A stretch of DNA of 64,000 nt, taken from contig OOIN01000002.1 in the NCBI GenBank assembly GCA_900323505.1, forward strand, positions 1 to 64,000, in the 5' to 3' direction. Made by a program: the position numbers and the translations under genes. Of this stretch, positions 1 to 22,757 are shown one piece after another. Source of the DNA: Ustilago trichophora (lineage: Eukaryota; Basidiomycota; Ustilaginomycetes; Ustilaginales; Ustilaginaceae). Numbering within the stretch: position 1 is the stretch's first letter; each line of letters starts with the position of its first letter. The notes beneath the pieces were generated by a model. It was not told the origin of the DNA and searched no databases. It saw only the letters and a list, made by a program, of their open reading frames with translations.

Positions 1-162
1 CCCTAACCCTAACCCTAACCCTAACCCTAACCCTAACCCTAACCCTAACCCTAACCCTAACCCTAACCCTAACCCTAACCCTAACCCTAACCCTAACCCT
101 AACCCTAACCCTAACCCTAACCCTAACCCTAACCCTAACCCTAACCCTAACCCTAACCCTAA
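1..162. repeat. Telomeric repeat array (CCCTAA)27
   Basis: Twenty-seven perfect CCCTAA units fill the first 162 bases with no variant unit. This is the C-rich strand of a TTAGGG telomere, in the orientation expected for a left chromosome end. The array passes directly into unique sequence at base 163, with no degenerate telomeric buffer. TTAGGG is the telomere unit reported for Ustilago maydis and many other fungi. The true array may be longer, because the assembly simply starts here. Confidence 0.98.
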
Positions 163-163
163 T

Positions 164-601
164 CTGATCACTGCATATGTCTGCAGCACGGGTCACTTCC
201 TCAATCATGTCCGCCAGTCAGTCACGTCTGTCACGTCACCAAGCTTGTCAGTCAGTCAGTCATGTCCGTCACTCATCCTGTCTGCCAGTCAGTGAAGTGA
301 CAGACAGCTCAGTGAGTCTGCTGGAGGAGTGGGCCGCTCAGCCAAAAAGTTGGATTGGTCTGTCAGGCACTAGAGCAGTGTGGGTGAGCGTGTCTGTCAC
401 GCTAGCAATTTCCCTGAATTTTGACGCGTCCGTCACCCACCTGTCCGCTGCCCAGCCAAGGAAAAAGAATTTTCCGTTGCGGCACTGCACCAGTGTTTTT
501 TGACGCGTCCCTCAGGCTGACGGAGCGTGGTCAGGTTGGCCATTTTGGCGGGACGGACTGGTGCTTCTCCTGCGGCTGGCGCACCGCAGCCTAGGGCTAG
601 G
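164..601. repeat. Telomere-associated direct repeat, outer copy
   Basis: This block recurs at 5204-5642 in the same orientation with only scattered substitutions and a one-base length difference. It is rich in GTCAGTCAGT-type runs and carries two TTGACGCGTC motifs (421-430 and 500-509). It ends in the telomere-like string CTAGGGCTAGG. The left edge abuts the telomere array. The right edge falls inside the reading frame of the helicase gene, whose last 30 or so codons are encoded by this repeat. It is probably a subtelomeric (TAS) unit shared among chromosome ends. Confidence 0.93.
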
Positions 602-3600: not shown

Positions 3601-4220
3601 ATGCTCTGCCTTTAGCATCAGGATGCCCACGCAGATGCTCGTAGAAAGCAGACTTGGCTTGGACGGCATAGGAGCACAAGTTGCAGCGGTAGCCTTGGAA
3701 GAGCTCACCCAGCTCAGGAATCATGCGCTCTGGCAGAAGATCCTTGTTGATGCAGACCGTGCCAGGAGACGGTACATCCAGTTCATCAAGGAGGCTACGC
3801 AGCATATCCTTGGCAGACCCAACCAGCGGCTTCTTGTGGACCTTCTTGATGTGAGCCATGACGTGCTTGAAGTCTGGGATGAGCGGCAATTGAGGACAAC
3901 AGCTGTCCAGGGTGCAGAGCAGGATGCGGGGATGGTCCACCAAGCGTAAGTTGAAGCGTGCCAGCTGAGCGGTGTGCTGAGGATCCACTGGAGTGGAAAT
4001 GGTGGTTTCTTGATTTGCGGCTTGGTTGGCAGCAGGGAGAGCGTGACTGAATTCAAAAAATGCAAATAGTGATGTCAGCTGCTGATCATTGATGATGTGT
4101 GGTGATGATTGCCCAAACATACCTGTCCGTATCACTGACTGCGTCCATTGTGTTGATGCCTGCATCAACAAGTTCAGCAGCAAGTATGCTGTCATCAGGA
4201 TGGAAAGATTGCTGAGACAT
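512..4220 (-). CDS. Telomere-linked OrsD / tyrosine-recombinase-like / RecQ-type helicase, 3'-truncated
   Basis: The proposed start is ATG at 4220. Exon 1 (4220-4123) ends at a GTATGT donor. A 76-nt intron (4122-4047, acceptor TTCAG) then restores the frame of the large exon 4046-512, giving a protein of about 1210 aa. An alternative unspliced start is ATG 4195. Residue numbers below count codons back from 4303 in the long frame. The N-terminus has two C2H2-type fingers (around 130-156 and 207-227), as in OrsD/DUF3505 proteins. A central region has R740, the HxxR pair H893/R896 and Y902, the layout of a tyrosine-recombinase core. The C-terminus has helicase motif I (MATGSGKS, 1047-1054), a DECH box (1143-1146) and motif III (LTATLP, about 1175). 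Motifs IV-VI are absent: from about residue 1234 the frame reads the subtelomeric repeat and stops. RecQ-like genes at U. maydis chromosome ends are established. The recombinase assignment is inference. Confidence 0.82.
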
Positions 4221-5203: not shown

Positions 5204-5642
5204 CTGATCACTGCATATGTCTGCAGCAGGAATCACTTCCTCAATCATGTCCGCCAGTCAGTCACGTCTGTCACTTCACCAAGCTTCTCAGTCAGTCAGT
5301 CATGTCCATCACTCATGCTGTCTGCCAGTCAGTGAAGTGACAAACAGCTCAGTGAGTCTGCTGGGTGAGTGGGCTGCTCAGCCAAAAAAGTTGGATTGGT
5401 CTGTCAGGCACTAGAGCAGTGTGGGTGAGTGTGTCTGTCACGCTAGCAATTTCCCTGAATTTTGACGCGTCCGTCACCCACCTGTCCGCTGCCCAGCCAA
5501 GGAAAAAGAATTTTCCGTTGCGGCACTGCACCAGTGTTTTTTGACGCGTCCCTCAGGCTGACGGAGCGCGGTCAGGTTGGCCATTTTGGCGGGACGGACT
5601 GGTGCTTCTCCTGCGGCTGGCGCACTGCGGCCTAGGGCTAGG
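5204..5642. repeat. Telomere-associated direct repeat, inner copy
   Basis: This is the second copy of the block at 164-601, offset by 5040-5041 bases. It starts at CTGATCACTGCATATGTCTG and ends at CTAGGGCTAGG. It carries TTGACGCGTC at 5462-5471 and 5541-5550. Outside these borders the two copies have different neighbours: telomere and helicase 3' end for the outer copy, helicase upstream region and LTR-like DNA for the inner one. Together they bracket a 5.04-kb helicase unit, as expected for a tandem subtelomeric element or an element with terminal direct repeats. Confidence 0.93.
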
Positions 5643-7879: not shown

Positions 7880-10800
7880 TCATGCATCGGCCATCTCGAC
7901 GTTGTCCTCAGCATGAGTTGACCCACTTGTCTTGCCAGGTTGCTCTAGTGTTCTGACCTTGCCCTTGCTCTTGCTTGACCTCTGCTTGGCCACGAGCTCA
8001 TCAGCGATTTGCTTGGGGGTTTGCCTGGGAGATCTTGCGGCACCGGTGATCGAGATACGCTCTCGGTCGTCGGCACCTTTCGAGTAGCACGTGTGCAAGC
8101 CTCCGCCATACTTGTAAAAACGACGGACATCATCAATGCCTCGAGTCGAGCTGACAGCTCGCAAAAGACGCGTGCTTTGAACTGTGGATGACTCGCTCAG
8201 ATCAAACAGGCGCCGCATTTGCTTTCGAGCGTCGTCTGTGAGCTTTACCAAGGCGCCAAACACTTGGGAGCTCCAGCCACTGACCACGACATTGCGACAG
8301 ATACTCGGCTTCTCGGTCGACTCACGGTAGGTCTTTTGGTACGCATGCGGCGTGACCACGGGGGAGCGAAGGTCGATGAACATCTCGAGGCATTCATTGT
8401 GTATCGTGAATCGAGGCGCAGCAACCCCCTTGGCTGCCGCCAGGTGGGAACAGTGCGATGGACCAAACTTCTTGGTTGCAGTAATCGAGGTAGTGCTATT
8501 CTTGACTTGAAGTGCGACATACGATAGCCGTGACGGCTCAAAGGTGTCCGACAACTGCGTCGGCTGCTCGGAATGGTAGATCGGAATGAGCAAGTCCCAC
8601 CCGGGTTGGTTAGTGTTGCCATAGATGGCCACCTGACGCCACCATGCTTCCACCAACAGGGTCGGATCCATGAGGCCAGGATGGACCCAGTGTTGCAGCT
8701 CGAGGTAATGGGTAAAGTTTAGATAGTAGCTCAAGGCCCACGACAAAAGCTCCCCAGACAGGTTCTCGACCTTCAACAGTTGCTTGAGCCAGTCGGCCAG
8801 GCAGACGGGATTGCACTGATCTGTGAGAGCATCCAAGTCGGATTGCAAAGCCTGATCGCCACGCTGTGCTACTCGATGTGCGGCGGCCAGGTCACTCGCG
8901 AGACTGCAGAGAAGACGAACACACTCTTCACCTTCTTCGCCAAGCAGTAGTCCCACCGTCTGGTACGCCTCGCTGAGGATATCGACGATGTCGGACCATC
9001 TCTCAGAACACTGCTCCACGGCCTCATTGCCCTTGCCACGCAGCAGAGAGGCCACCGCCAGCGAAAGGGGCGGCTCAGATACAGTTGTGGTGACAAAGTA
9101 GCTGGTGCCATGCACTTCGCTGATGACACGAAGATGGTGCGAGACCTGGGCCTTCAAGAAGTGAGTTTGTCTTGCGAACATGTCGTCGGCGAGCCGAGCC
9201 TCAGAGACGGCCTGTGGTGGGGTTCTTTTAGCCACCGTCAAGCGACTTTGCCGACGAGCACCTCGAATTCCAACAAAGGTGAGAGGGAGTCGTTGAGCAA
9301 AGGCGGCCATGATGGTGTCGAGGCGATGCAGTCCATCCTTTTCCGGCCAAGGATTTGTGCAATCTGCATGAACGAGCAGCTTGTGCAAGAGATTGGAGAC
9401 CTCAGGCCATTTCTGGTCGCCTTGGACACCAAGATAGAGGCCCGTGCTCCACAGGGGTCTTCCAAAGTATCGAAGCGTCTCAAGAAGATGACCAAAGGTC
9501 AGACGTGAGGCCAAGAGGTCGTCGAAACGGCTGAGTCCCTCGTGCTGGAGTGTGACATCGAAGGGGAGGAAAGTAAAGGGGTCGACCACAATCAAGCCGC
9601 TAACCTTGCCGAGTCGAGCCGACGCCTCGATCACTTCTTGACCGGCAAGCAAGGCTACGTTAGAGTCGGTATCAATAAACATGAGCCAGGTGCAGCGAGG
9701 TTTGCTTTCCCTCCAGAGTCGACGGAAAATGGGAAGCAGATCGCCCAGAGTAGCCGCTTCGTCGACGGCCAGGAAGAAGTAGTGACTGGCGTGCAAATCA
9801 GAGGGGAGGAGCGCCTCGAGTTGCTGCAAAGGCGCCGCCATGAACTCGTCAGCAGCCATCTTGGCTTGAAGTTCAGGCTCGGGCTCAGGCTCAGGCTCAA
9901 GGCCAGGACTCGAAGCACTCAGCTTGTGCTTGCTACGGGGGGCGTATTTGTTTCCTGCCTGCTCAGAGACTTGGTGGAGAAAGTGTGTACGAAAGTGGCC
10001 AGAACGGTTGAGTTGTGATGGTGACGACGAGCCCTTGGACATTTCAGAGGGCATGAGGGTGCTTTGTTGGCAGAAGCGCTTGTGGTTGTTGGCATTCGAG
10101 GGGCGTTTGGGGTCGAAAAAGGTATAGTTTTCAATAAAGTCGGAACCGCTGTGGATGGCAATGGCCAGGTCATAGACAATGGTTGACCAGCACGCTGCGA
10201 CGTCGTCATGACGAGGCGAGAGGTCGGGATGGAAGCAACCGCTGCAGTGCATGCGCTTTTGAAGCTGAAGGTGGAGCTGGTCGAAATAAGCGGCGAGCCA
10301 GGATGCAATACGGCGATGTGCTTCAAACAACGCGACGGTGGGTTGCGCTTGACGGAGAAAGCCATAGACCTCGTCATCGTTGGGCGGGAACGAGGTGCTG
10401 GCGTGACGGTCGCGGCGTTTGGGTGAACGCGTGCAAATGAGGAGACCGGCCTGGAAAGCGGAAAGCTGCACGGCGAGCTTGGTCTTACCGGTACCCGAGG
10501 ACTGGAGGATGGCAAAGGTCTTTGCATAGACGAGGTCATGGTTGTTTCCGATGAATGAATTGGTCGAGAGGGTATAGCTCTGAAGGTCAAAGACGGCATC
10601 ACCGTGCAAGGGCGAGCTAAAGTCGCGACATACTTGGAGGTCGGTGTTGGCATCGTGTAGCACCGGTGTAGGTTCAACGGTGGAGAAAAGGAGAGGCAGA
10701 AGTTGGAGCAAAACCTCAGTAGCAACTTGCAATTTAGATGGAGGTGGAGATGATGCCAGAGCATCAACAATGCCTTTGAGGGTGATGGACTCAGATTGGA

Positions 10801-11197
10801 TCAAACTCATTAGCTTGGAGGCGGAAGAGCATTGCCGCCGATGACCGTTTTGCCAGATCATATGCGTGGAGCAGGGCGAGATCGAGGACGCAGGGAACGG
10901 CTTGCCAGTGATGACATCAAGCGAAGGATGCGAGCAACGATCTTCCGCCTTGATCCCGTCGAGAGTCCTTTCAATCCATGTGATGATTAACGCTAGGTTT
11001 GTGAGGTAGTCATAATCGTTGTTGTTGTTGTTGCTGTCAGTGTCGCTGTCGTCGTCGGTCTGCTTTTGTCCGTCGTTGCCACCATCCTCATTGCCGCCGG
11101 AGGGGACCGATAACAAGGTCATCTCAATCATCTGGCTTTTTTGCAGCTTTCTGCGTAGCAACGTGCCTAGACGGCAATTTGTGTTCGACTTTGACAT
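7880..11197 (-). CDS. P-loop NTPase with C-terminal PD-(D/E)xK-like nuclease domain (paralogue A)
   Basis: An intronless gene of about 1105 aa. The frame stays open upstream, but the first ATG is at 11197, and numbering is from there. A Walker A motif ILQSSGTGKTK lies at about 231-241, and a Walker B-like FFLAVDEA has the D-E pair at 479-480. GRPLW follows at about 579. A C-terminal segment GWDLLIP (D868) ... LSYVALQVKN (Q897, K899) matches the D...QxK pattern of restriction-endonuclease-fold enzymes, and LEMFIDLRSP follows. An acidic Asp/Asn-rich tract (about 48-62) and an EPEPEPEP run (about 434-442) are low-complexity inserts. The closest relative here is paralogue C. The role is unknown: nucleic-acid cleavage coupled to NTP hydrolysis is inference. 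P-loop plus nuclease fusions are known among fungal Crinkler-type and other conflict proteins. Confidence 0.8.
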   Translation of the reverse strand: MSKSNTNCRLGTLLRRKLQKSQMIEMTLLSVPSGGNEDGGNDGQKQTDDDSDTDSNNNNNDYDYLTNLALIITWIERTLDGIKAEDRCSHPSLDVITGKPFPASSISPCSTHMIWQNGHRRQCSSASKLMSLIQSESITLKGIVDALASSPPPSKLQVATEVLLQLLPLLFSTVEPTPVLHDANTDLQVCRDFSSPLHGDAVFDLQSYTLSTNSFIGNNHDLVYAKTFAILQSSGTGKTKLAVQLSAFQAGLLICTRSPKRRDRHASTSFPPNDDEVYGFLRQAQPTVALFEAHRRIASWLAAYFDQLHLQLQKRMHCSGCFHPDLSPRHDDVAACWSTIVYDLAIAIHSGSDFIENYTFFDPKRPSNANNHKRFCQQSTLMPSEMSKGSSSPSQLNRSGHFRTHFLHQVSEQAGNKYAPRSKHKLSASSPGLEPEPEPEPELQAKMAADEFMAAPLQQLEALLPSDLHASHYFFLAVDEAATLGDLLPIFRRLWRESKPRCTWLMFIDTDSNVALLAGQEVIEASARLGKVSGLIVVDPFTFLPFDVTLQHEGLSRFDDLLASRLTFGHLLETLRYFGRPLWSTGLYLGVQGDQKWPEVSNLLHKLLVHADCTNPWPEKDGLHRLDTIMAAFAQRLPLTFVGIRGARRQSRLTVAKRTPPQAVSEARLADDMFARQTHFLKAQVSHHLRVISEVHGTSYFVTTTVSEPPLSLAVASLLRGKGNEAVEQCSERWSDIVDILSEAYQTVGLLLGEEGEECVRLLCSLASDLAAAHRVAQRGDQALQSDLDALTDQCNPVCLADWLKQLLKVENLSGELLSWALSYYLNFTHYLELQHWVHPGLMDPTLLVEAWWRQVAIYGNTNQPGWDLLIPIYHSEQPTQLSDTFEPSRLSYVALQVKNSTTSITATKKFGPSHCSHLAAAKGVAAPRFTIHNECLEMFIDLRSPVVTPHAYQKTYRESTEKPSICRNVVVSGWSSQVFGALVKLTDDARKQMRRLFDLSESSTVQSTRLLRAVSSTRGIDDVRRFYKYGGGLHTCYSKGADDRERISITGAARSPRQTPKQIADELVAKQRSSKSKGKVRTLEQPGKTSGSTHAEDNVEMADA

Positions 11198-11346
11198 GAT
11201 AGGCGTACGGTGCGCCTTGAATGGTGGCGCACTATTGAAGAAAGAGAGAGCAAATGGGAGACATTGTTTCGGTGGTGTGGTAGTGGTGGTGATGGTGATG
11301 ATGAGCTGAATAAAACTGAGCCAAAGTCGTCCAACCAAAGCGTGTC

Positions 11347-11369
11347 TGAGAATATCGGAACTCGGACAC
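11347..11369 (-). promoter_or_regulatory. Shared upstream motif of paralogue A
   Basis: On the minus strand this reads GTGTCCGAGTTCCGATATTC and onward to TCA. It lies about 150 bases upstream of the ATG of paralogue A. The same string with one internal difference occurs at 15193-15215, in the promoter region of paralogues B and C. A shorter version, CCGAGTTCCGAGCTCG, lies at 11505-11520. It may be a common regulatory site or simply residual homology from gene duplication. Confidence 0.45.
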
Positions 11370-11764
11370 TCGGATAAATTGCGCACGCATGCGCACAAGC
11401 ATTCATTGCTCAGCCATCCTTGCCTTTCTCAACTACCAATATGCTGACACAGCAGGTGACTGTGTATTCCAACACTTGGGCTCCCAGCTTCCAGCTCCTG
11501 CCTCCCGAGTTCCGAGCTCGGTTGAGGAAGAAGGTTTGGGCAGCGCCCTTTGTTCATTTGGCATCTGGCCTTGAGCTCGAGGAAAAGGAGATGTCGGAGG
11601 GGTGATCAGTTTGTTCCTTCCTACCTCCAACACCGTACCGCATCACACACACACTAGCGATTGTTTTCACGAATGAATTGATGGATCTGTCGACAAGATT
11701 CTGAACCCCCTTCGACCAACGCAATGTCAGATTAGACACATATCACCAACACTGCCAAGCCATA

Positions 11765-14700
11765 TCAATCCAGATCCATGCCCTGTGCTTGATGTTGAGC
11801 CTCATCATCCGTGTCCAAGGCAGCCGAGATTGAATGTAGCAAAGGTGACACCTTATCATTCCAGACGGGGTTGGGTAATACGTTGAACTGCTCATACGAA
11901 GGCAGCGCAGTGAGATCGGCCAGCATTGCCTGAAAGATGGATCGCATCTCGAAGTCGTCCAGACAAGGGTAAGCATGCGGATCGAGCACACCTCGGATGC
12001 AGAGTCGAGGGCATTCCGTGCCCTTGATGATTTGCACTCGCGGTTGGAATCCTCGAGGTTGGCTGGCAAATGGTGTTGATGTGCCAAGGTCGAGGAGCAC
12101 TGTCATCAGCGCCCGTTCGGTAAGTGGCTTCTCTCCTTCAGGCGCTCGCGAGGCGCGCTTGATCAATGGCCCGGCAAATTTGAGCATCAATTCCGTTCTG
12201 CCCGATTCCACTCCGGGCTGCGGGTCGACAGTGTTCTTGGCTTCCCACGCAACATAGGTCATGTAGCGCGCAGCGTGCATTTCAAGGGCGGTGCCATCGT
12301 CTATGGTGCTGGCAGCGGGATCCTCAAAAGGCTGCTCGAGATTGCCCATAAAGACGGGAATGATGCCGTCAATGCCCGCCTGCGAATGGGCCATTTGCAG
12401 CCCCACTCCACGCTTCCAACAGTACCATAGGTATTCCGCCGATATCTCGGTGATCTGGTTGGGCAACACATCAAAGTGCGTAAAGTTGGTCCATGCAGTC
12501 GTGCTTCCAAGAGCATCGTCTCGTGTTTGCAGCGCCTTTCGAGTCTGCGAGCCATCGTCTTGGACCTGTTGGATGCGTTGACGCAAAGTAGTCCAGTTGG
12601 CCTCATCAAGGCGGGCCAGGCCTGAGATGATGCTTTCAAGAGGGACGGCCTCGGTCAGCACCCTCCGGTAATCAAACGAGTTGGGGGTTCCCAGCTGGTT
12701 GAGCGTTTTGCGCTTGGCCGCGTCCCAAGCAACGGTAAAAGCGATGCGTGAGGCAAGCTCTCCGTGCGTGCCTTTGAACAAAGCGATGGCTGGACCGTTC
12801 AGGCACTGCGTTCGGAACTTGGCAAAGATCAAGGCGTACGTGTGGGCAGCTCTGTTTTCTAGCATGATTAGTGAAGCCGCAATGGCCAGCACTGGTTCCG
12901 AGGGAGACCCAACCTGCATGACCGCTTCGTTGGAAATGTGATTGGCTATACGCATGTGACGATCCACGGCCTGGTCCATAAAGAGCTTTTGCGCACCAAA
13001 TAAGGGAGAGCGGTCCGAGTGTATTGGGACAAGGCCGAGGGCGAGCCGAGACGCTAGGATGCTAAAGAGCTGCAGACCGTCCTCGTAGGAAAATTCTCTG
13101 GCCCCTTGAAGCTTGGTAACGACCGTTTCCCAAAATTTGTCTTTTTCGAGTGAGACCCACAGTGGACGTCCGTACTTGATGATTCGATCATGGTGGGATG
13201 CCTCGGAGGCTCGAGTCATGTCTTCTTGTTCTGTCACAAGCACATCGAAGCCCACACCAACAAATGTCGGTAAAGGCGCCGAGTTTCTCCGTCGAAGTGA
13301 AACCTGGTCATCGAGGTGATCGACAAGATGAGCAGCGCTGCTACTGGTGCTCAATAGCACGAGCCAAAAGCTCAGCGTTTTTTTGGAATCTCGGAGCGCG
13401 CCAATGTAGTTCCAAGCTCGGCGGAGGCTATTGAGCTGAGTGTTGCCATTGGTCGCGCCAGTGACGTTGATCTCGACGCATTCATCAAAAGCTACCAGCA
13501 CCGGAGGCACTGGCATCCCGGATTGACCCTTAGACAGATATCGCGAAATGGCACCGAGCTGTTCATTGAGGTTGAGGATGGGCTGGAGGAGAAATTCGCG
13601 AAAGATGTCCTCGTAATGACCCGTTCTCAGCGCCGGCGAGACTTCTTTGAAGTGGAAAGTTGCAAGTTTCGATACAGCTGTGAAGAGCTCATAGCGTGGG
13701 TGGCTGGCATCAACGGTTGGACTGAACTGGTTCAGTTGGGAAAGAAATTGATACTTGGCGGCGTCGGTGGTGCAAAGTTTCAAGCTCTCTGCAAGCTTTG
13801 AAAACCAGGCACCGAGGAAGCAGGCCACCTGAAGATCGCACAAGGAAGGGTGACGGGACTCGGCTTCCAAAAAGAATTTTCGAACGCCCTGGTCTGCGAG
13901 AGGAAAGCCATGCCTTGCGTTGCCGTCGGCGCCGGTTTTGCGAATGCAGACGTACAGAAGCGGGGTGCGGTGGTGGCATTCGAGAACCATGCGCGTCTTG
14001 CCGGTGCCGCTGGACTGGACAATAGGCGTGCCGCGATAATAAGGTTTGGCCTCCTTGTCGAGGATCTGATCAAAGTAACCATTAAGCTGAGTGATGAAGG
14101 CGAGGAAACGTTCCGGAGCGTTGCCGCGGTAGGGGCGATTGAACTCTTGAGCGAGATGTCTGTATGTGCCCCATGCCTCATAATCGCTAGAAGGCTTGGG
14201 GGTCGAGACAGCAAGATGCACAAGTAGAAATGCCAAGGTCTCGTCGTTTGTGGCGAAAGTGGCGAATCGGGGGATGAGCTCAGAGTAGGCGGCAGTGAGC
14301 GGCTGGACAAGCTGATTTTCGCCGTCGTCGAAGAATTTGTCGAGCTCTGGTATTACTTTGCATAGTTCGACGCGCTCTTTCAAGATCATATCGGCTAGGC
14401 ATTTGATCTGTCCTGCACAGATAGATGGGTCATCGTTCGAAAGTTGGCAGACTAGGTTGTGTATCTGCACCATTGTTGACCACCTCTTTACTCGATTCAG
14501 CTGCGGTACGCATGATCTTGCTTGTTTGGCGCGAGGAGAGTCTTGTAGGGATGACGGATGTGCAAGCGCAGTGGTGGGCGTGGTAGGCGTGGTAGGCGTA
14601 TCATGTTGGATATTGGGTGTCTGGCTTTGCGATTGATGGGGTTCAATGATGGCCTTGAGCAAGGTCAGGAGGCGGTCAAGGGGCCATTGGGTAGGCTGAA

Positions 14701-14878
14701 AGTGGGTGGCAAGCTGGTCGTGCAAGACTGCAGAGACAGCCTCGAGGTGAGCCCATGGCGGCAATCTAGTCACATCACGAGACTGACCCAAGAGATGGTC
14801 ATTGATTTGGTCGCTGAGCAGCGCGAGCTGGCTTTCACTCAACCGAGCTGTGAGCTTGACGGCGGCATGATACACCAT
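11765..14878 (-). CDS. P-loop NTPase with C-terminal PD-(D/E)xK-like nuclease domain (paralogue B)
   Basis: An intronless gene of 1037 aa with ATG at 14878. The Walker A motif VQSSGTGKTR has G291-K294-T295, and a Walker B-like VLVAFDEC has D465-E466. GRPLW lies at about 570-574. The C-terminal segment GIDGIIP (D837) ... YVAWEAKN (E879, K881) gives the canonical D...ExK of PD-(D/E)xK nucleases, unlike the QxK of paralogues A and C. A Thr/Pro run (about 94-102) separates an N-terminal helical region from the rest. B is the most diverged of the three: it lacks the A/C-specific blocks around HLRV(I/V)S and SEPPL. It is divergently arranged with paralogue C across about 680 bp. The function is unknown, and the nuclease fold is inferred from motif order and spacing. 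Confidence 0.78.
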   Translation of the reverse strand: MVYHAAVKLTARLSESQLALLSDQINDHLLGQSRDVTRLPPWAHLEAVSAVLHDQLATHFQPTQWPLDRLLTLLKAIIEPHQSQSQTPNIQHDTPTTPTTPTTALAHPSSLQDSPRAKQARSCVPQLNRVKRWSTMVQIHNLVCQLSNDDPSICAGQIKCLADMILKERVELCKVIPELDKFFDDGENQLVQPLTAAYSELIPRFATFATNDETLAFLLVHLAVSTPKPSSDYEAWGTYRHLAQEFNRPYRGNAPERFLAFITQLNGYFDQILDKEAKPYYRGTPIVQSSGTGKTRMVLECHHRTPLLYVCIRKTGADGNARHGFPLADQGVRKFFLEAESRHPSLCDLQVACFLGAWFSKLAESLKLCTTDAAKYQFLSQLNQFSPTVDASHPRYELFTAVSKLATFHFKEVSPALRTGHYEDIFREFLLQPILNLNEQLGAISRYLSKGQSGMPVPPVLVAFDECVEINVTGATNGNTQLNSLRRAWNYIGALRDSKKTLSFWLVLLSTSSSAAHLVDHLDDQVSLRRRNSAPLPTFVGVGFDVLVTEQEDMTRASEASHHDRIIKYGRPLWVSLEKDKFWETVVTKLQGAREFSYEDGLQLFSILASRLALGLVPIHSDRSPLFGAQKLFMDQAVDRHMRIANHISNEAVMQVGSPSEPVLAIAASLIMLENRAAHTYALIFAKFRTQCLNGPAIALFKGTHGELASRIAFTVAWDAAKRKTLNQLGTPNSFDYRRVLTEAVPLESIISGLARLDEANWTTLRQRIQQVQDDGSQTRKALQTRDDALGSTTAWTNFTHFDVLPNQITEISAEYLWYCWKRGVGLQMAHSQAGIDGIIPVFMGNLEQPFEDPAASTIDDGTALEMHAARYMTYVAWEAKNTVDPQPGVESGRTELMLKFAGPLIKRASRAPEGEKPLTERALMTVLLDLGTSTPFASQPRGFQPRVQIIKGTECPRLCIRGVLDPHAYPCLDDFEMRSIFQAMLADLTALPSYEQFNVLPNPVWNDKVSPLLHSISAALDTDDEAQHQAQGMDLD

Positions 14879-15060
14879 GTGACAAGCCTAGAGCCTGTCC
14901 TGGAGCTTTACTTTGTGGTTGGATGCGATGATGGTGGTGGTGATACAGAGAGCTGGATAAGATTGAGCCTGAGTAATGCCAGCCGTGGCGCGTGGCAGGT
15001 GGACTGTGGAAGATGGACGTTGGTCGATATGTTTTGAGTGTTTGACGGTTGGGTTGTTGA

Positions 15061-15129
<69 letters not shown>
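15061..15129 (+). repeat. (ATG)18(GTG)5 trinucleotide microsatellite
   Basis: Eighteen perfect ATG units are followed by five GTG units. The tract sits between the divergent starts of paralogues B and C, so length changes could alter promoter spacing. It is likely to vary in length between strains. Confidence 0.97.
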
Positions 15130-15192
15130 ACGAGGAAGGCGAGGATGGCTGAGCAGCTGAGTCAACGCATGCGTGCGTGCGTGCGTGCGTGC

Positions 15193-15215
15193 GTGTCCGA
15201 GTTCCGAGATTCTCG
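15193..15215 (+). promoter_or_regulatory. Shared upstream motif of paralogue C
   Basis: The string GTGTCCGAGTTCCGAGATTC and its short extension match the motif upstream of paralogue A with one internal difference. It is in the same orientation relative to the downstream gene, about 350 bases from the ATG of paralogue C. It follows directly on a GCGTGCGT run; the A copy also has a GCGCATGCG string nearby. Confidence 0.45.
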
Positions 15216-15562
15216 CAGCTCAAAGCTGGTCACGACTCAACCATGTTTTCGTTTTCAAACCACCATCATAAAATTCCACTTTCATCATCGTTTTTTCTTT
15301 TGGCTCAATCGTTGGGGGCCAACCTTTGGTTGTCTGTTATACCTCGTGACAACGTGATGCCGGCAAGCATATCATTTGGCCGGCCTCAGTTTCATTCAGC
15401 TGTTTAATTTGTGCATCCCAACTTGGCTGAAGTCGGCGGGTCTTTGTGATTAGGCACCACCATCACCACCATCATCATCATGATCATCATGATCAGCTAA
15501 TCCAACAACCCTAGGCTCACATTGGAGTGACTATCGTACCGAGTTCACTCTCACGATTCGAG

Positions 15563-18500
15563 ATGTCCCCCTCGTCGCCACTCAGCTCGTCTTCTGCGTC
15601 CCAATCCACATCTACAGGTGATTCAGACGTCATCTCTTTGGAGGCTAGAAATAAGCTCTACTCGAAGCTTCTCTCGGATCTACTTTTGGAATTGGTAAAG
15701 GATCCCAACCAGTACCCCAAGGCTCTCCGAGACATCTGCAAACTCGTCAACCCGAAACCAGAGTGGCAACTTCGCGCCGCGCTCGCTGTACTTTGCGATC
15801 ACCGTCAATCCTTTTTTCCACTCGTCCACCGTAAGCTGGGTGACAACGCCCTACACCTGCCCCGCGACGTTAAGAATGAGCTCATGCATCGCATTGGAAA
15901 GCGGCAATACCAATGTAATCAGCCTCAACACATCGACATTGTCTATACTCGGCTAGTCGCATGGATTAAAACCCAAACCTCCCAAAACTCCGACAGCGAT
16001 ACTTCTGCTCAACCACTAAGCACGCAAGACTGCCTTGACGTCGTCCTTCGACTCATACTGCGTCCTTCACCAAAGTCGCCGCCACCACTTGAAACACGAG
16101 CAACCAGGCAGCAACTTGTCCAAGCTTTTGCCACCGACTTTCGTGGGCCAGCGTTGCACAATTTGCTACGACATCTCAAAGTCTTATCCAGACACTCGTT
16201 CAACCCTATACCCCCGTCAAAATCTGCAGCAGGTATCCCATCGCGTCCTTACTACGCCAAAGTGGTTTCCATCCTTCAGTCGTCTGGATTTGGCAAGACC
16301 AAACTCTGTGTCCATCTCAGTGCGCAACAAGCTGGTCTCCTCGTCTGTTTGCGAGCAGACGACAAAGCAGCAAGCTCCGTCACCTCGTTTCCACCGCAAG
16401 ACGAGAAGATTTACGGACTCCTCTCCGCCTGCTCCACAGCTTTCGCCGATGTCATCAACAACGTCGATCGTAAGAACAACGACGAGCTCGCAGCTACTGC
16501 TGATCTCTGCGCTTGCGTCACCCTTGGCTGCTTCTTGGCTGCATATTGCCATGTCCTTACCGACAAGTTGACAAAGCTCATGCGTCTCTCCGGCTGCTTC
16601 GAATGGCATCACCACGAGCAGCATCCTCAATCCAAGCATGCTACGCCCGGCATGTGTTGGAACTCGATTGTGTTTGCACTTTCGGCCTCGCTCCATCGCA
16701 AATCCACTTTTGTCGGTCAACTCAAGCTCAAAGCCGATGGCATGTGTCGCACGTCTGCCCTCTTTTCTCACGACTTGATCCGCATCGACGCCGACGAATC
16801 TCCTCACTCCACCACGCCTGCGCCGGATCTTTCTCTCTACGACCAACTTCCCAAAGATCTCAAGTTGTTTGTCGACGAGCTCCGAAGCCCAGATACGCGC
16901 GACAATCTCCTCAAAGCCGTCAAAGAAGAGGCCGATCGACTCTTGCCTGAGGCTCAACAGCTAAAAAGTGCCAAGGATCTAGCCCAGGGTCTCGTCAAAC
17001 CAAGACTCTCCCAGCTCGAGCGTCTCGCCCCCTCGCAACCAGACGACAACAGTACCATCTTCTTCCTCGCGCTAGATGAGTGTAGTTCCATCTCGCCCAT
17101 TCTCCCCCACCTACGGCGACTCTGGAGTTTCAGCCAGCCCCAACGTACCTGGATCTTCTTGATCGACACCAAGAGTCACATACCTCCGTTGGCTGGTAGC
17201 GAAGCCCTCTCTTCTTCAAGGTTGCAATTTGGCACGGGCACACATCAGATCGCACCGCCCTTCACCACCATGCCTCTCGATGTCCATCACTCGCCCGAAG
17301 AGGCAGCGAAGCTCCAAAGCGACTTTGCCAACAGATCTTGCACGGCCCGCCGACTCAATCTTTTGATACCCAAGCTGGGGAGGCCGCTCTGGAACGACAA
17401 GCAATTCTATCGCGACGAGCATGGCATACCCAAGTGCCACCACATCATCAGCAAGCTTGTCAAGAGCAACTTTGTATGGCAATGGCCTTCCGACTTGGAT
17501 AAAATCGTCGATCTGTTTGACTGGGACGATGACAAGGCAGCCGGAGACAGGGATTTTCAAAACATCATGGCTCTCACCTCGCAGCGTGTGCCGCTTGGTC
17601 TATCTTGCAATGCGGTGAAAAGAAAATGGCAAAGATTTGCAAAGGATCAGATCTCCAATCATTTGCGTGTCGTCTCCAAGGTTCATCCGCAAACCGATGT
17701 CGTCGAATCGCACACTAATAGCGAACCTCCGCTCGGCATAGCAGCCGCTTGGTCCTTCCGATATCAAGCTGACCGTATTAAGTCCAAGTGGTCTCTCGCC
17801 GTCGCTACGGTAATCCGTGCTCAGAATGCCATTGGGCTCAACGTCGGACTCGAAGGAGAGGAGGGCATTCACCTCCTTTGCACTATGGCGACTGATTTTG
17901 CCGCTGAAGACAAGTACCAGAACGACTACGAGTCTGTAGGATTGGACGACGAGGCCGAGGACCACGCGGCCAAGTACAAGTGTACTATGGGCCTAGTCAC
18001 CGTCAAAGATTGGCTAGATGTGCTCATCGGTAGCAAGCTTACCTCTGCCGACGAGAGCAATGCAGAGGCTGATCGAGCCTTTGACGCATGGTGCAGCCAA
18101 AACTGGATCAATTTTAAGCAAATCGGCGATCACGATCTTGGCCGCCAAGTCAAGATGAAGAGAAAGGCTGATGCTAAGGAGACAGACGGTAAAAACCACG
18201 TGGATGGTGGCGACGAGGACCACAACGCCTACGACAAGAAGGCAAGCGGTGGACGTGAGCATGACAAGGATGCTGCCACCAGCCTGGATCGCGGCCTGCT
18301 CGCCAACTTTTGGGTTCGGCATGCGGCCATACGAGGTGTCTCGAACCAAAAGGGATGGGATCTCCTGATCCCCGTGTACGAGTCGACAGAGATGCCGATC
18401 GGCGATGAGCCCTTTGCGCTTGAGCGATTGTCCTACATAGCTATCCAGGTCAAAAATACCGTCAACGCGCCCGACTTCCCAGAGCAACTCGGCCCCGATC

Positions 18501-19027
18501 TGGACGATATCGTCGACTCAATCAGGACCACGTCATGTCTCGAGTTGTTTTTGGACCTTCGTGGACCAATCACAAAGGCTCACTCGTTGCTCAGCTCGGC
18601 TGAGCCGGCAAACACGGATGCCAACATTGCCCGCAGAGTACGCTACAACATTTATGTCAGCGGCTTGGACGAGCAGAGCTATCCGGTGCTGAAACGATTG
18701 GACGAGCTGGCCAAAAACATGACCCCGACGCTGTTTGGTCTGAGCTCCTACGGTACCAATCAATTTGACCACGACTTTGCTCATTACGTCTGCGATCTTG
18801 AAAACAACGACGACAAGGTGGCGGATCGCCAACAACTTGATGCGGCCGAGGGCAAATGCCCGCTCATCCAAGGAATACCCATGCGCAATCCTCCGGCCTT
18901 ACTGCAAAGACCGACCAATCGGATTTTCGGCACAGGTCAGAGCAAACGAATGCGTGCAACAGGCCAAGATGATGCTGGGCTGAGTGGAGAGCTTCAAATC
19001 AAGCGGCTCAAATCAAGCCCTGCCTGA
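15563..19027 (+). CDS. P-loop NTPase with C-terminal PD-(D/E)xK-like nuclease domain (paralogue C)
   Basis: An intronless gene of about 1154 aa. The first ATG is at 15563, and residue numbers run from there. The N-terminus is Ser-rich. Walker A ILQSSGFGKTK has G242-K245-T246, and a Walker B-like FFLALDEC has D505-E506. GRPLW lies at about 607-610. The nuclease-like segment is GWDLLIP (D932) ... LSYIAIQVKN (Q962, K964), followed by LELFLDLRGP. A charged Lys/Asp/Glu/His-rich insert (about 865-905) lies just before the nuclease domain. The Lys/Arg-rich C-terminus (QIKRLKSS) could serve as a nuclear signal. Many blocks match paralogue A: SFPP(N/Q)D, HLRV(I/V)S, SEPPL, and EGEE followed by LLC. 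The role is unknown. Confidence 0.8.
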   Translation: MSPSSPLSSSSASQSTSTGDSDVISLEARNKLYSKLLSDLLLELVKDPNQYPKALRDICKLVNPKPEWQLRAALAVLCDHRQSFFPLVHRKLGDNALHLPRDVKNELMHRIGKRQYQCNQPQHIDIVYTRLVAWIKTQTSQNSDSDTSAQPLSTQDCLDVVLRLILRPSPKSPPPLETRATRQQLVQAFATDFRGPALHNLLRHLKVLSRHSFNPIPPSKSAAGIPSRPYYAKVVSILQSSGFGKTKLCVHLSAQQAGLLVCLRADDKAASSVTSFPPQDEKIYGLLSACSTAFADVINNVDRKNNDELAATADLCACVTLGCFLAAYCHVLTDKLTKLMRLSGCFEWHHHEQHPQSKHATPGMCWNSIVFALSASLHRKSTFVGQLKLKADGMCRTSALFSHDLIRIDADESPHSTTPAPDLSLYDQLPKDLKLFVDELRSPDTRDNLLKAVKEEADRLLPEAQQLKSAKDLAQGLVKPRLSQLERLAPSQPDDNSTIFFLALDECSSISPILPHLRRLWSFSQPQRTWIFLIDTKSHIPPLAGSEALSSSRLQFGTGTHQIAPPFTTMPLDVHHSPEEAAKLQSDFANRSCTARRLNLLIPKLGRPLWNDKQFYRDEHGIPKCHHIISKLVKSNFVWQWPSDLDKIVDLFDWDDDKAAGDRDFQNIMALTSQRVPLGLSCNAVKRKWQRFAKDQISNHLRVVSKVHPQTDVVESHTNSEPPLGIAAAWSFRYQADRIKSKWSLAVATVIRAQNAIGLNVGLEGEEGIHLLCTMATDFAAEDKYQNDYESVGLDDEAEDHAAKYKCTMGLVTVKDWLDVLIGSKLTSADESNAEADRAFDAWCSQNWINFKQIGDHDLGRQVKMKRKADAKETDGKNHVDGGDEDHNAYDKKASGGREHDKDAATSLDRGLLANFWVRHAAIRGVSNQKGWDLLIPVYESTEMPIGDEPFALERLSYIAIQVKNTVNAPDFPEQLGPDLDDIVDSIRTTSCLELFLDLRGPITKAHSLLSSAEPANTDANIARRVRYNIYVSGLDEQSYPVLKRLDELAKNMTPTLFGLSSYGTNQFDHDFAHYVCDLENNDDKVADRQQLDAAEGKCPLIQGIPMRNPPALLQRPTNRIFGTGQSKRMRATGQDDAGLSGELQIKRLKSSPA

Positions 19028-19480
19028 TCGGCATCATCACGACGCAGCTGTTGCTCTTCCTCCTCCTCCTCCTGATCCTGTTGTCATTTCTCCCTGTGCA
19101 TGAGTGTTGCCATTGTTGGTGAATATTGGCTTGTGCATCTGACATGCCACATTGCCATTACCAACACAACATGGTGGTTGAAGCAATCAGCAGACCCCGC
19201 CATAGTCGAAGCTATAGGTCCGCGACAAGACGGCATGTCATGGCAATGTTTTGACAGAATAGACAGTTTTATTTTGGCTCTTGCACTTTTTCAGGGTGGT
19301 GTTTTTTAACATGAAAAAAACATGAGAAAAAAGAAGAGAAAAAAATGCCGCTATGCACACAAAGTTGGTGAAATAGCCAAACTGGTCTGACGTGGCCACG
19401 ATATGTTCTTGCTTGAACTGATTGGCAAACAAAAAGGTTTCATTGCGAGATGTGTGACTGTCGAACACAAAAAACTCGAC
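19028..19480. other. Intergenic between converging genes
   Basis: Convergent 3' flanks of paralogue C and the RING protein. It holds a TCC-rich run near 19056-19075 and A-rich tracts near 19310-19345. No gene was recognised. Confidence 0.6.
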
Positions 19481-21367
19481 TCAGGACACTAAGCTTGTCC
19501 TCCGCCTCGAAGCGACAGCAGCAGCAGCCCTCGGACTGAAGCTGAGCACAACATGACAAGTCGGACAGAACGCCTGCGCGGTCAACCATGAGACTAAGCA
19601 CACATCGTGCAGCTCGTGGCCGCAATCGAGTCTACAGAACTCGAACTTCTTCTTTTCCGCTTCGTCCGTGTTCTTCTGCACGCCATCCTGCGCGGCCGCT
19701 GTACGAGTTTGCTCGAAGCAAATGGCGCAATATACATCATCGTACGACTTCCACTTGTAGTCTCCTGCCTCTACGGCTGCCCGTGGCCTCACCACAGACG
19801 CGTACGGATCCTGTCCCTGCGGCAGCTGCACGCCCCACCTGCGACGGACGAACTCCAGACACTCGACGGAGCTGCGCGCGCGAGACCAGATCTGCGTGAG
19901 GGACGCCAACTCTGATCGCAAGCTCAGCAGCGATAGTACCGGCGGCAGGGAGGTGGGTGAAAGCGTGGGCAGTCGCAATGTGATCACAGAGTAGATGAGC
20001 GCGCCGACGAGTTTGTCGAAAAGCGCAGTGGCCGTCTCGGAGAGCCATTTAGTGGAGACGAGAACTGATTGTCCACGCAGGCGTGGGGCTCGGCGGCGAC
20101 GGGTAGATGGAGTCTGTGTTGCGTCGTTATTCTCCGAAAGGGTCAATGGTGCGATAGGACGGGAGACGCTTGTTGATCGCAAAACTTCGTTCTCGGGCGC
20201 CCCGACTCGTCGATATGTCTGTTGCGGATAGGCTTGACTCGGTGTCTCTGCGCGGGTGGCCCGAGAAGCGACTCCAGAGGCTGTAGCTGTGTCGTCGTTG
20301 TTGCTATTCGGCTGATGAGAACCTGGCTCCGCACTGATTCCATCTGCTATAGATGTCGGAGCTGCCGTGCTGATAGAAGGCATCATCGGACGTCGTCTGC
20401 CACCGGTGTATCTCTGTGTTGCTGATCTCATCACCGGCTCCGTCAGCGCGGCTTTGACCGATCTTGGCAGGGGCAGCAGCTCCACCAGTGGCGGTAGATG
20501 TGACGGAGACGGCAGCTTCATCTGCATCGGCACAAAGCTCGAAATCAAGTCAGCGTCCACCTTTGGCAGGATACTTATCAGATGTACCACCGTAGATGCC
20601 GCTTCTAGCATGACAAACAGCGACAGTGGTAGCAGTCCATCTGCCTGAAAGATCGACTTTGACTGTGGTTCCGGCACTCGAGGTTGAAGCGATTCGTATC
20701 CGAGCTTTGCTCTCCAGATGCGACAGCGAGAGTGTATCGCAGCTACCGTCCCCCGCAGTCCGGCGAGGATCGCCAGTGTACAGAGTAAGCCGAGATAGAT
20801 AAGCGGCAGAGTCACCGAGTAGAATCTAGATTTGGCGCCAAGCAACGAGTTCTTGACAACTCCATCTTCGACAGCCAGTCCTGCGAGACGAATTATCCAG
20901 AGCACATGGAGCGAAAGTAGCGCGGGTAACACATGCTCGTCGACGATCAAGCCCCAGCTAAGCTTGGGGAAGCGGAAAAGGGAGCCGGGAGGAGGTTGAC
21001 CTTGTGCAGTTGCGGCAGTCTCTGTTTGCTGTGCTGATGGTGCTGGTGACGGATAGGCTACACCGCTCTTTGATGCAACTGCTGGTGCATCGGGTTTCGA
21101 GCTGGCAGTGGAAGGAGTAGAGGAAAGAAGCTCGGAGGCAGGCGGCGCAGCAGCTACAACCAGACCGTCAATGATACTGATCGACCAGCCTTGTTGCGCC
21201 GGTTGGCTGGCGCTGACTGCAACAGTTCCTGATTGCGAAGAGGAGAGCTGACTCGTGTTGTAAGGGCTCAGGAGGACTAGAAGAAGCAACAGGCAAAGTC
21301 GAGGTCGGTAGACGTTCTTCCGGAACGAGTCCAGACTGGACGAGCTGAGTGCGAGCGAGGGTAGCAT
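19481..21367 (-). CDS. Multi-pass membrane RING-H2 protein, putative E3 ubiquitin ligase
   Basis: ATG at 21367 gives about 628 aa. The frame stays open further upstream but there overlaps the divergent J-protein gene, so that part is not used. A hydrophobic stretch at about 20-33 may be a signal anchor. Further membrane segments lie at about 145-164, 182-205 and 245-267, with a weaker one near 450-465. The C-terminal RING-H2 finger (about 547-604) reads CAIC, then CGHELHDVC, then CPTC, with a long insert after the second Cys. This fits a membrane-bound E3 ligase of the ER or another endomembrane acting in protein quality control. The overall layout recalls Hrd1-like proteins, but the order of segments differs. 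The substrate is unknown. Confidence 0.72.
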   Translation of the reverse strand: MLPSLALSSSSLDSFRKNVYRPRLCLLLLLVLLSPYNTSQLSSSQSGTVAVSASQPAQQGWSISIIDGLVVAAAPPASELLSSTPSTASSKPDAPAVASKSGVAYPSPAPSAQQTETAATAQGQPPPGSLFRFPKLSWGLIVDEHVLPALLSLHVLWIIRLAGLAVEDGVVKNSLLGAKSRFYSVTLPLIYLGLLCTLAILAGLRGTVAAIHSRCRIWRAKLGYESLQPRVPEPQSKSIFQADGLLPLSLFVMLEAASTVVHLISILPKVDADLISSFVPMQMKLPSPSHLPPLVELLPLPRSVKAALTEPVMRSATQRYTGGRRRPMMPSISTAAPTSIADGISAEPGSHQPNSNNDDTATASGVASRATRAETPSQAYPQQTYRRVGAPENEVLRSTSVSRPIAPLTLSENNDATQTPSTRRRRAPRLRGQSVLVSTKWLSETATALFDKLVGALIYSVITLRLPTLSPTSLPPVLSLLSLRSELASLTQIWSRARSSVECLEFVRRRWGVQLPQGQDPYASVVRPRAAVEAGDYKWKSYDDVYCAICFEQTRTAAAQDGVQKNTDEAEKKKFEFCRLDCGHELHDVCLVSWLTAQAFCPTCHVVLSFSPRAAAAVASRRRTSLVS

Positions 21368-21788
21368 GACTGTCGATCCACATAGCACTGCGTCGTCCTG
21401 AGTGTCGAAGCAGAAGAGTCGCAAGGAGCACAGAGCATCGGTGAGAAAGAGTTTGAGCTCTAATTCATGTTGTTGTGTGCTTGCGGTTGTGTGGCAAGAC
21501 GTGGGAAGACAAGTGCGAGTGCTTTGAAAGCGCTTCAAAGCCGCCGAGATTGAGTGGAGGCGCAAGCACTTTTTCCCAGAGACGCTGGTCTGCCGCTGCG
21601 TGGACCCTCTTTCCAGCCACAGAAGAAATAGAGAGGAGATGATTTCCAGCAACAGAGTCGCGGGCAGCAAGCAAACATCATCCGAGTTGGTTGCTGCTGC
21701 TTGCCTCTCAATCGCATCGTTTCTGCATTGGCCACTAGATGTTCCGTCTCTGTGTCGATCACCGAGCAAGGGGCAGCGAGAGGACAAC
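21368..21788. promoter_or_regulatory. Divergent promoter between RING protein and J-protein genes
   Basis: A 421-bp gap between two divergent ATGs. Frames cross it on both strands without stops but lack ATG starts and recognisable domains, so it is treated as shared promoter and 5' UTR. Confidence 0.5.
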
Positions 21789-22757
21789 ATGACCGGGCAG
21801 GCGCCGCCACCACCTCCACCGCCCGGCCCTCCACCGGGTCCCCCTCCTGGACTACCGCCGCCAGTTCCTCCACAGCTGATACGAGGGCCATCATCTGCCA
21901 ATCCCAGCTCCGGGTCAGCACCAGTCACGAAACTCCTAAGCAGTAGCATTTCAGACTCCCACCCGAATCCTTCCAATGGTGCTGGAAAGTCGAATGAAAA
22001 GTCGCAACAAGAGCCTACAGCTGCCAGCAGCTCAGCCAGCGACAAGCGAGCCTTTGCGTTGGAACGCACCTCTCTTTTCCAACAGCTCGAAATTGATCGC
22101 ATACTCAGCGCCTTCCGCTTGAATCCATACGACGTGCTCGAAGTGCCACTAGAAGCAGACGACAAGGAAATCAACAAGATCTATCGCAAAAAGTCGCTTC
22201 TCATCCACCCGGACAAGGTCAAGCATGGTGAGCCTCTTCGCCGTCCAACCCCTTGCCATCTCAAATCTCCGTCCTTCTCTTACTGACTTTCCTTTTGAGA
22301 TGTCTCCTTTGGCACGGCAGAAAGGGCCGTGGAAGCCTTCGACCTGCTCAAAAAGGCCTCTTCGCACCTTTTGGATGAAGACAAGCGTAACGTCCTCGAC
22401 GAAACCGTGATGGATGCCCGGCTGATGGTGCTCAAGCAGCTGAACTTACCCTTTGCTACTGCTTATGACGATCCACGTCTGGCGAATCTCAATCCAAGCT
22501 GGGACGAACGTGTACGCCAGGCCACCAAGGAGCTTATGGTGGACGACGAACTGCGCAGACGGAAAGCGATTCGCATTCAACATCAGGCCGAGGGAGAGGC
22601 GCAGAGGAAGAAAGAGCAAGCGGCCGAGGAACGGAAAAGGAAGGTAGAACATGATGCTGCTTGGGAACAGACCCGAGATCACAGAGTGGCCGGTTGGAGA
22701 GCCTTTCAGAAGGGCAGCAAGAAGAAGAAAAAGGCCGGTACCGACGTTCTTGGTTGA
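21789..22757 (+). CDS. DNAJC8/Spf31-type J-domain protein (splicing-associated)
   Basis: Two exons, 21789-22227 and 22321-22757, flank a 93-nt intron (GTGAGC donor, TACTGAC branch-like site, GGCAG acceptor). The intron splits the J domain and its removal restores the frame. The product is 291 aa. An N-terminal Pro/Gly-rich tract is followed by a J domain of the form NPYDVLEVP, then IYRKKSLLIHPDK with the HPD motif, then RAVEAFDLLKKA. The C-terminal half is a charged Lys/Glu/Arg coiled-coil ending in a lysine cluster. Domain order and sequence fit DNAJC8/Spf31, a nuclear J-protein linked to pre-mRNA splicing, which would recruit Hsp70 through HPD. Confidence 0.85.

Follow-up and report, generated by a model that had tools for sequence, protein, structure and literature searches.

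At the telomeric start of contig OOIN01000002.1 of Ustilago trichophora, three neighbouring genes, referred to here as A, B and C, encode paralogous proteins in which a P-loop NTPase is followed by a probable PD-(D/E)xK-type nuclease, and these genes belong to a large family concentrated at the chromosome ends of this fungus. Profile comparison assigns them to the Crinkler/RHS-type (CR) NTPase-nuclease proteins, as part of a smut branch; their N-termini are helical, and the Crinkler header is absent. The reading that we prefer, at a probability of about 55%, is that they are intracellular, NTPase-gated nucleases used in genetic conflict. The window analysed comprises the first 64,000 nucleotides of the contig (assembly GCA_900323505.1).

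The three-gene cluster and its borders

The features of the contig start are listed in Table 1. A sequence-only reading of this DNA had described three open reading frames of 1037-1154 aa at 7880-19027 near a telomere, and these coordinates were recovered exactly, each gene being an uninterrupted reading frame. All motifs described in that reading are present, although the C-terminal aspartate of C is D933, one residue off the position 932 given there. The proposed paralogy holds in sequence comparisons of A with C (28% identity over 992 columns, E 2e-80), A with B (E 8e-12) and B with C (E 1e-7).

Table 1. Features at the start of the contig; motif positions are in protein numbering.
Feature	Position	Strand	Description
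Telomere repeats	1-162		(CCCTAA)n
DEAD-box helicase ORF	512..4195	-	Telomere-adjacent, not a family member; Pfam DEAD E 2.4e-14
Gene A	7880..11197	-	ORF, 1105 aa, NTPase-nuclease paralogue; P-loop 232-239 (QSSGTGKT); Walker B D479 E480; GRPLW 579; D868, Q897xK899
Putative nuclease core of A	8348..8737	-	Residues 821-950; from strand order in the model and conservation of D868/K899
Gene B	11765..14878	-	ORF, 1037 aa, NTPase-nuclease paralogue; P-loop 288-295 (QSSGTGKT); Walker B D465 E466; GRPLW 570; D837, E879xK881
Putative nuclease core of B	11999..12493	-	Residues 796-960; from strand order in the model and conservation of D837/K881
B-C divergent intergenic region	14879..15562	.	684 bp; GAT/GGT trinucleotide arrays at about 15060-15130 and 15456-15495
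Gene C	15563..19027	+	ORF, 1154 aa, NTPase-nuclease paralogue, A/C clade; P-loop 239-246 (QSSGFGKT); Walker B D505 E506; GRPLW 606; D933, Q962xK964
RING-like zinc finger gene	19481..22102	-	Pfam matches slightly below cut-off

The RING-like gene is the first gene collinear with another contig (C1) and forms the inner border of the cluster. Between B and C, the duplicated block of B stops at 15422 and that of C begins at 15514. In the other haplotype, the homologous end yielded no close copy of this cluster.

A genome-wide family at chromosome ends

The three-gene cluster is real, but it is a small sample of a family with at least 75 loci in the genome, of which at least 69 lie no more than 50 kb from a contig end, and at least 49 of the 90 contig ends, about half, bear such loci. 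The copies have gene-sized blocks in common and fall into two clades, the A/C clade and the B type. Both clades occur together on 9 of 48 ends, compared with a mean of 9.04 after shuffling of the labels; this count is based on 68 loci and omits seven of the 75, namely six that lie more than 50 kb inside and the locus C43:37248. Since the clades co-occur no more often than expected by chance, the data give no indication of a two-gene system, either a toxin with its antidote or an obligate A/B pair, and this idea is not supported; no partner gene was found.

The NTPase and the putative nuclease

The lysine of the P-loop is kept in all 85 ungapped rows of an alignment of 89 rows. AlphaFold models were made for A (mean pLDDT 78.0, pTM 0.76) and B (mean pLDDT 84.5, pTM 0.77), and in both the central P-loop NTPase is modelled with a STAND/Orc-Cdc6-like fold. 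The top solved chain in the fold lists is Avs3, tied with Orc rows in the case of A, while Foldseek with the whole B model returned nothing at E <= 0.001, as did the sequence search of the PDB at the same threshold. A, B and C contain no ligand-sensing repeat family according to Pfam, and neither Pfam, NCBIfam nor PADLOC assigned any family at cut-off to them, known nuclease families included.

The earlier suggestion that a PD-(D/E)xK-like segment follows the NTPase, which had been made dependent on the order of the nuclease core and on conservation of the D and K residues, agrees with both kinds of data. In the models of A and B the C-terminal elements follow the order helix - strand - strand - strand - helix (alpha-beta-beta-beta-alpha), with a near-invariant D at the start of strand 2 and a K at the end of strand 3. 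In the numbering of B, D837 is found in 82 of 84 ungapped rows, K881 in 82 of 89 rows, and E or Q at position 879 in 79 of 89, more than chance would give. The fold-search lists obtained with whole-protein models were filled by the NTPase region, with no solved structure matching the nuclease part; as these searches never reached this part, the nuclease fold is inferred from the conserved residues and the predicted strand order. On this basis the C-terminal part is likely a PD-(D/E)xK-type nuclease, in fold as well as in activity. Mrr_cat (PF04471) had no match in the genome of the fungus.

Relationship to Crinkler-type proteins

Homologues are present in many smuts, including Moesziomyces and U. 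maydis (UMAG_06351, UMAG_04693 and UMAG_03635 among others), and in mushrooms. In one mushroom relative, P0120, the Crinkler header PF20147 (E 2e-18) precedes the same body; in the non-smut alignment of 15 members, no other protein carries it. The smut and non-smut profiles, which were built separately, match each other over about 700 columns (E 9.4e-68 and 1.8e-53). Together with the header-bearing P0120, these matches indicate that A, B and C are CR bodies without a Crinkler header, so that the comparison with Crinklers drawn in the sequence-only reading now stands at the level of profile homology. The header itself is absent from A, B and C at E <= 10 in Pfam and from all 32 B-type members at E <= 1, and the LxLFLAK motif does not occur in the N-terminal 200 residues of A, B or C, nor in the header-bearing P0120. 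In a crude hydropathy check, the N-terminal stretches of A, B and C remained under the cut-off, which was reached by 3 of 88 members as against 224 of 1760 random pieces.

A tree was calculated with FastTree without the unrelated neighbours P0004 and P0005 and without P0132; its long branches (C and the mushroom rows) are placed with uncertainty, and P0127, which is also part of the non-smut profile, groups with the mushroom rows. Scans with few, short patterns for bacterial or viral relatives gave 27 pattern matches for P0120 in genome contigs and three for P0132 in viral contigs, none of which was confirmed, so that they speak only weakly for absence. The sections of the CR review drawn on here count the trypanosome RHS proteins among the CR proteins and argue for an origin from NTPase-REase proteins of prokaryotic mobile elements (PMC5289972). 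No earlier account of the family in smuts was found in the portions of the open-licence literature covered, so that an earlier description may exist, and in the passages of papers naming both Crinkler and Ustilaginaceae, Crinklers are not tied to smuts.

Selection and divergence

In the pairs A/C20 and B/C24, dN/dS indicates purifying selection on the nuclease and the NTPase, with the lowest point estimate in the nuclease. For B and its C19 copy the ratio is 0.73 (0.46-1.28), a range in which constraint is not clear; the pairs B/C26 and A/C11 are saturated, and the N-terminus and tail of B/C26 gave no estimate. The description of the family as fast-diverging applies mainly to the N-terminus, where acceleration is seen in a single well-resolved pair, A/C20.

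Proposed role and alternative explanations

We propose a part in genetic conflict for A, B and C, as self-contained weapons or sentinels. The variable, helical N-terminal part would sense or target, the central NTPase would serve as the switch, and the putative nuclease, once released, would cleave nucleic acid; possible targets are invading elements, competing haplotypes, or the foreign nuclei encountered after mating. Because neither a Crinkler header nor a signal sequence can be recognised in the proteins, they would act inside fungal cells. The subtelomere would be where copies of gene size arise by duplication, are exchanged and diversify. Genome defence, incompatibility and selfish action, all raised in the sequence-only reading, are compatible with the data. 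A more far-reaching version, which we put forward as a speculation with the odds against it, is that smut chromosome ends hold a repertoire of STAND-type NTPase-nucleases that is specific to the haplotype, goes on diversifying and serves intracellular immunity or allorecognition. Foreign nuclei, viruses or transposons would be sensed by the variable N-termini, the NTPase would assemble, and the nuclease would kill the cell or the invader. If so, differences between haplotypes at these ends would help to decide which dikaryons and hybrids survive.

Ustilago trichophora is a plant-parasitic smut, and the proteins could instead be effectors like the oomycete Crinklers, delivered to plant cells by an unconventional route, with the nuclease damaging host DNA. 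The homology of the body to a header-bearing Crinkler protein fits this, as does the account, in the sections cited, of the toxic parts of CR proteins as C-termini that combine an NTPase with an REase (PMC5289972). However, A, B and C have neither the header nor an N-terminal hydrophobic stretch over the cut-off, and the relatives include saprotrophic mushrooms and the yeast-like Moesziomyces, which makes a host-directed role unlikely. The mobile-element descent argued for the RHS proteins, together with the presence of the family on about half of the contig ends and the blocks common to its copies, could also point to nuclease-NTPases without a cellular role, which persist by spreading with subtelomeres or creating safe sites in them. 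Against such RHS-like persistence stand the purifying selection on nuclease and NTPase, the distribution of homologues across smuts and mushrooms, and a repeat scan of positions 1-22500 that found no repeat pair flanking a gene like terminal repeats; we consider it doubtful.

Alternatively, the nuclease fold of the C-terminal domain might be inactive or have taken on another use, binding DNA without cutting it, which would make the family DNA-binding ATPases; D or (E/Q)xK is substituted in 13 of 83 ungapped rows. All three residues are intact in the other 70, and the lowest dN/dS point estimates of A/C20 and B/C24 fall in this region, so loss of catalysis across the family appears improbable. 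Even less credit is given to a function in chromosome-end maintenance, with NTPase-nucleases working on telomeric or subtelomeric DNA in recombination-based end repair. It would suit the location and the resemblance of the NTPase to Orc/Cdc6, and in the parts of the U. maydis reports available the homologue UMAG_06351, which lies less than 20 kb from the end of its chromosome, is elevated in a single telomerase-negative strain, and another homologue, UMAG_04693 (Chr17:1396-4642), lies in a stretch with a copy number of 1.80 after adaptation to hydrogen peroxide. Yet many end-proximal genes of other kinds also changed in the portion of the ter1 study available, 41 of 90 contig ends have no detected copy (the copy count being a lower bound), and the family is far more diverse in sequence than the telomere-linked helicase.

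What was annotated as "conserved hypothetical Ustilaginaceae-specific protein" can now be recognised as a family of nucleases, probably gated by the NTPase, with members in the model smut U. maydis, and CR-type bodies have expanded at the chromosome ends of one smut without the canonical Crinkler header. This raises the question of whether the primary place of Crinkler-type proteins in fungi is the fungus itself, where they would function in mating, hybridisation or defence, with a role as host effectors in some cases only.

Comparison with known systems

Subtelomeric multigene families are the habit of the trypanosome RHS proteins, to which A, B and C are likened here by way of the CR class and not by direct sequence comparison. 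With the CR proteins as presented in part of the review (PMC5289972), they have in common the body by profile, the succession of NTPase and D...(E/Q)xK segment, and the multigene organisation. They differ in their N-termini, which are helical, about 180-200 aa long and take the place of the ubiquitin-like header, in their concentration at chromosome ends, and in being unrecognised by any Pfam model. Compared with Avs3 and other STAND defence NTPases and with fungal and plant NLRs, they have a C-terminal nuclease-like segment and, by Pfam, no ligand-binding repeats; identity to Avs3/STAND NTPases is 10-12%, a similarity of fold only, and the Orc/Cdc6 matches are nearly equal. The Spok spore killers of Podospora and Fusarium offer a parallel in their nuclease domain with an active-site lysine, of the same nuclease class according to the section cited (PMC12693581), and in their conflict role, whereas their kinase resistance domain has no counterpart in A, B and C, in which Pfam finds no kinase family at E <= 10.

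The neighbouring helicase is UTASa-like by position and domain, a likeness drawn without sequence comparison to UTASa, the telomere-linked helicases of U. maydis (PMC10532341, in part). Copies of it occur at no fewer than 38 places on at least 35 of the 90 contig ends, as counted from the 38 of 90 candidates scored after one 87-base row of 39 was dropped. The special tie between cluster and helicase suggested in the sequence-only reading is weak: the helicase is also present on at least 23 of the 49 family ends, a lower bound because only these candidates were scored, compared with about 19 expected by chance (35 x 49 / 90). UTASa-type helicases resemble the family in their location at chromosome ends, but the protein is unrelated to A, B and C, and most of the helicase copies are near-identical, 28 of them at 99-100%, in contrast to the diverse family.

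Three paralogous genes and their relatives

Contig OOIN01000002.1 (2,685,375 bp, in an assembly of 38.8 Mb in 45 contigs) starts with telomere repeats at window positions 1-162 and carries the genes A, B and C as predicted uninterrupted frames. Judged from protein alignments, the three are paralogues (A with C: 28% identity, E 2e-80; A with B: E 8e-12; B with C: E 1e-7). The sequence-only reading, which described three clustered paralogues with an NTPase and a nuclease-like part, is upheld in this observation: every motif it named was found in all three proteins. The catalytic-type residues are likewise present, although the aspartate of C is D933, one position from the number given. Two GAT/GGT trinucleotide arrays lie between B and C (15060-15130 and 15456-15495); the first of them also occurs at four other B-type loci (L036, L039, L044, L045) and might be a recombination point.

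Predicted genes of the cluster and counterparts of the adjoining core genes on contig C1
Feature	Location	Strand	Description
Gene A	window 7880-11197	-	uninterrupted frame, 1105 aa
Gene B	window 11765-14878	-	uninterrupted frame, 1037 aa
Gene C	window 15563-19027	+	uninterrupted frame, 1154 aa
RING-like gene counterpart	C1, 68.7 kb	same	81% protein identity
Transaldolase gene counterpart	C1, 73.5 kb	same	87% protein identity
Proline dehydrogenase gene counterpart	C1, 93.6 kb	same	90% protein identity

In the protein search, with about 8000 candidates scored, A gave 15 rows and B gave 91, the window's own protein counted in each. The rows that bear an organism name (10 of the 15 and 66 of the 91) all come from smuts, apart from P0056, which is listed under a plant, and the mushroom proteins P0108-P0110. 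Homologues occur in U. maydis (UMAG_03635, UMAG_06479, UMAG_06351, UMAG_01443, UMAG_04887, UMAG_04693, UMAG_04689, UMAG_05066, UMAG_06505), U. hordei, U. bromivora, U. tritici, U. loliicola, Sporisorium, Melanopsichium, Moesziomyces, Kalmanozyma and Thecaphora, deposited as ‘uncharacterized’, ‘hypothetical’ or ‘conserved hypothetical Ustilaginaceae-specific’ and otherwise only under chance labels. The profile search from eleven members added the mushrooms Stygiomarasmius, Dendrothele, Ceratobasidium, Cantharellus, Fistulina, Taiwanofungus and Amanita. A and C fell within one 16-row group with a support of 100 in a FastTree tree of 123 rows, with B outside it; the seven Thecaphora rows formed a cluster, and only three label changes account for the nine rows of U. 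maydis, which points to lineage-specific expansion. P0056, a B-type homologue with 44% identity, sits on a 48 kb contig filed as Cichorium endivia and is probably a smut contaminant of that plant assembly. The metagenome protein P0132 (786 aa) has the P-loop, GRPLW and D..IIP...QFKN pattern of the family, hinting at relatives beyond the named fungi.

Link to Crinklers

The Stygiomarasmius relative P0120 carries the Pfam Crinkler header (PF20147) at residues 3-98 (E 2e-18, above the cut-off), followed by a family-type body; none of the other 14 sequences in the non-smut alignment has this header. The smut B-type profile (32 rows) matched the non-smut profile (15 rows, 14 of them mushrooms) with E 9.4e-68 over 708 columns and the A-type profile (15 rows) matched it with E 1.8e-53 over 666 columns; smut and non-smut profiles were aligned separately and have no sequence in common, while most non-smut rows came from a query holding smut rows, so that the searches are not independent. 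At the level of profile comparison, the family body is homologous to a Crinkler body. Nothing reached the cut-off in the Pfam scan of A, B and C, the Crinkler header included, and structure models show helical N-termini for A and B. A review describes the header domains of Crinkler/RHS-type (CR) proteins as varied, with several unrelated helical ones among them, and assigns over a quarter of CR C-termini to NTPase plus REase (PMC5289972). The family is assigned here to a known kind of protein, the CR type, as its smut branch, and is not a wholly new system; remarkable in this branch are its concentration at chromosome ends and the missing Crinkler header.

Subtelomeric placement, selection and copy movement

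Genome searches matched at least 79 (A), 50 (B) and 74 (C) stretches, with the best 42 of 112, 44 of 89 and 40 of 95 candidates scored, and all family counts are lower bounds. Merging gave at least 75 loci, 63 of the 75 being 1.5 kb or longer. By these lower-bound counts, no more than 50 kb separates 69 of the 75 loci from a contig end (11.3% expected), and at least 49 of 90 contig ends hold one or more. Of the 60 loci that exceed 1.5 kb and lie no further than 50 kb from an end, 42 are transcribed in the direction of the telomere. Stop codons lie inside 18 of the 79 A-matching stretches, although a single stop may instead sit in an intron; intact and apparently decaying copies therefore stand side by side. 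Contig C43 (168 kb) breaks the end-proximal rule with four loci 37-61 kb from its ends (37-110 kb); this contig could result from a mis-join or a rearrangement of subtelomeric sequence.

For A and its C20 paralogue (84% identical), dN/dS was 0.82 (0.57-1.20) in residues 1-180, 0.27 (0.18-0.42) in the NTPase and 0.16 (0.04-0.53) in the nuclease part; for B and C24 it was 0.43 (0.21-0.65) in the N-terminal part, 0.29 (0.20-0.38) and 0.16 (0.09-0.24), the intervals of several regions overlapping. Constraint is not clear between B and its C19 copy (97% identical; 0.73, 0.46-1.28), and the C11/C32 B-type pair gave 0.31 (0.11-0.89). The B/C26 and A/C11 pairs are saturated, two B/C26 regions giving no estimate. 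DNA comparison with the retrieved loci yielded separate, gene-sized blocks: the A block is common to the C3, C10 and C20 ends, the B block (11762-15422) matches the C19 right end at 98%, and the C block (15514-19035) matches the C19 left end at 94-95%.

On the telomere side, about 440 bp beside the repeat (164-601) recur 5040 bp inward (5204-5642) with 94-98% identity, so the helicase element appears flanked by two copies of its own edge, like tandem subtelomeric elements. The DEAD-box helicase frame (512-4195) is matched at 22 other places over residues 1-1204 only, nearly all within a 1692-aa open frame; this copy, and one on C30, therefore look shortened on the telomere side.

Possible function

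The large, conserved, subtelomeric family combines an NTPase core with conserved nuclease-like residues, and the architecture proposed from sequence alone was a good guess. The C-terminal part would adopt a nuclease fold and have nuclease activity, the NTPase may have a gating role, and the proteins presumably act inside the cell, in a putative conflict role. Fungi holding relatives include some that are not parasitic on plants. A role as host effectors is possible; we favour an intracellular role, since A, B and C have neither the header nor a clear signal sequence (Pfam scan; N-terminal hydropathy check), relatives are found in fungi other than plant parasites, and the architecture resembles that of known conflict proteins. 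The genes may also be relics of retrotransposon hotspots. The A/C and B clades are not paired on contig ends beyond chance, which argues for self-contained genes.

Maintenance of chromosome ends is a further possible role. In U. maydis, UMAG_06351 is one of the genes raised in one telomerase-negative strain that lie no more than 20 kb from a chromosome end. After adaptation to hydrogen peroxide, UMAG_04693 (Chr17:1396-4642), annotated in that study as having a helicase ATP-binding domain, was in a stretch with a copy number of 1.80. The intracellular role remains our preferred reading.

The homologous chromosome end

The RING-like gene adjoining C and the genes for transaldolase and proline dehydrogenase each have a single close counterpart on C1, with order and strand kept, and by these three core genes window 19481-46632 is collinear with C1 68.7-95.9 kb. 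C1 begins with telomere repeats, and its sole family locus among the matches listed is at its right end. The cluster is seemingly absent from the left end, since the A, B and C searches list no match there; a diverged copy could escape, whereas a close copy would be expected to rank high among the candidates. From this comparison, the inner border of the variable region seems to lie between 19,027 and 19,481. Three stop codons lie within the match to the RING-like gene in its C1 counterpart. Since the counterparts are only 81-90% identical in protein, the comparison suggests that the assembly holds two strongly diverged haplotypes, possibly those of a hybrid.
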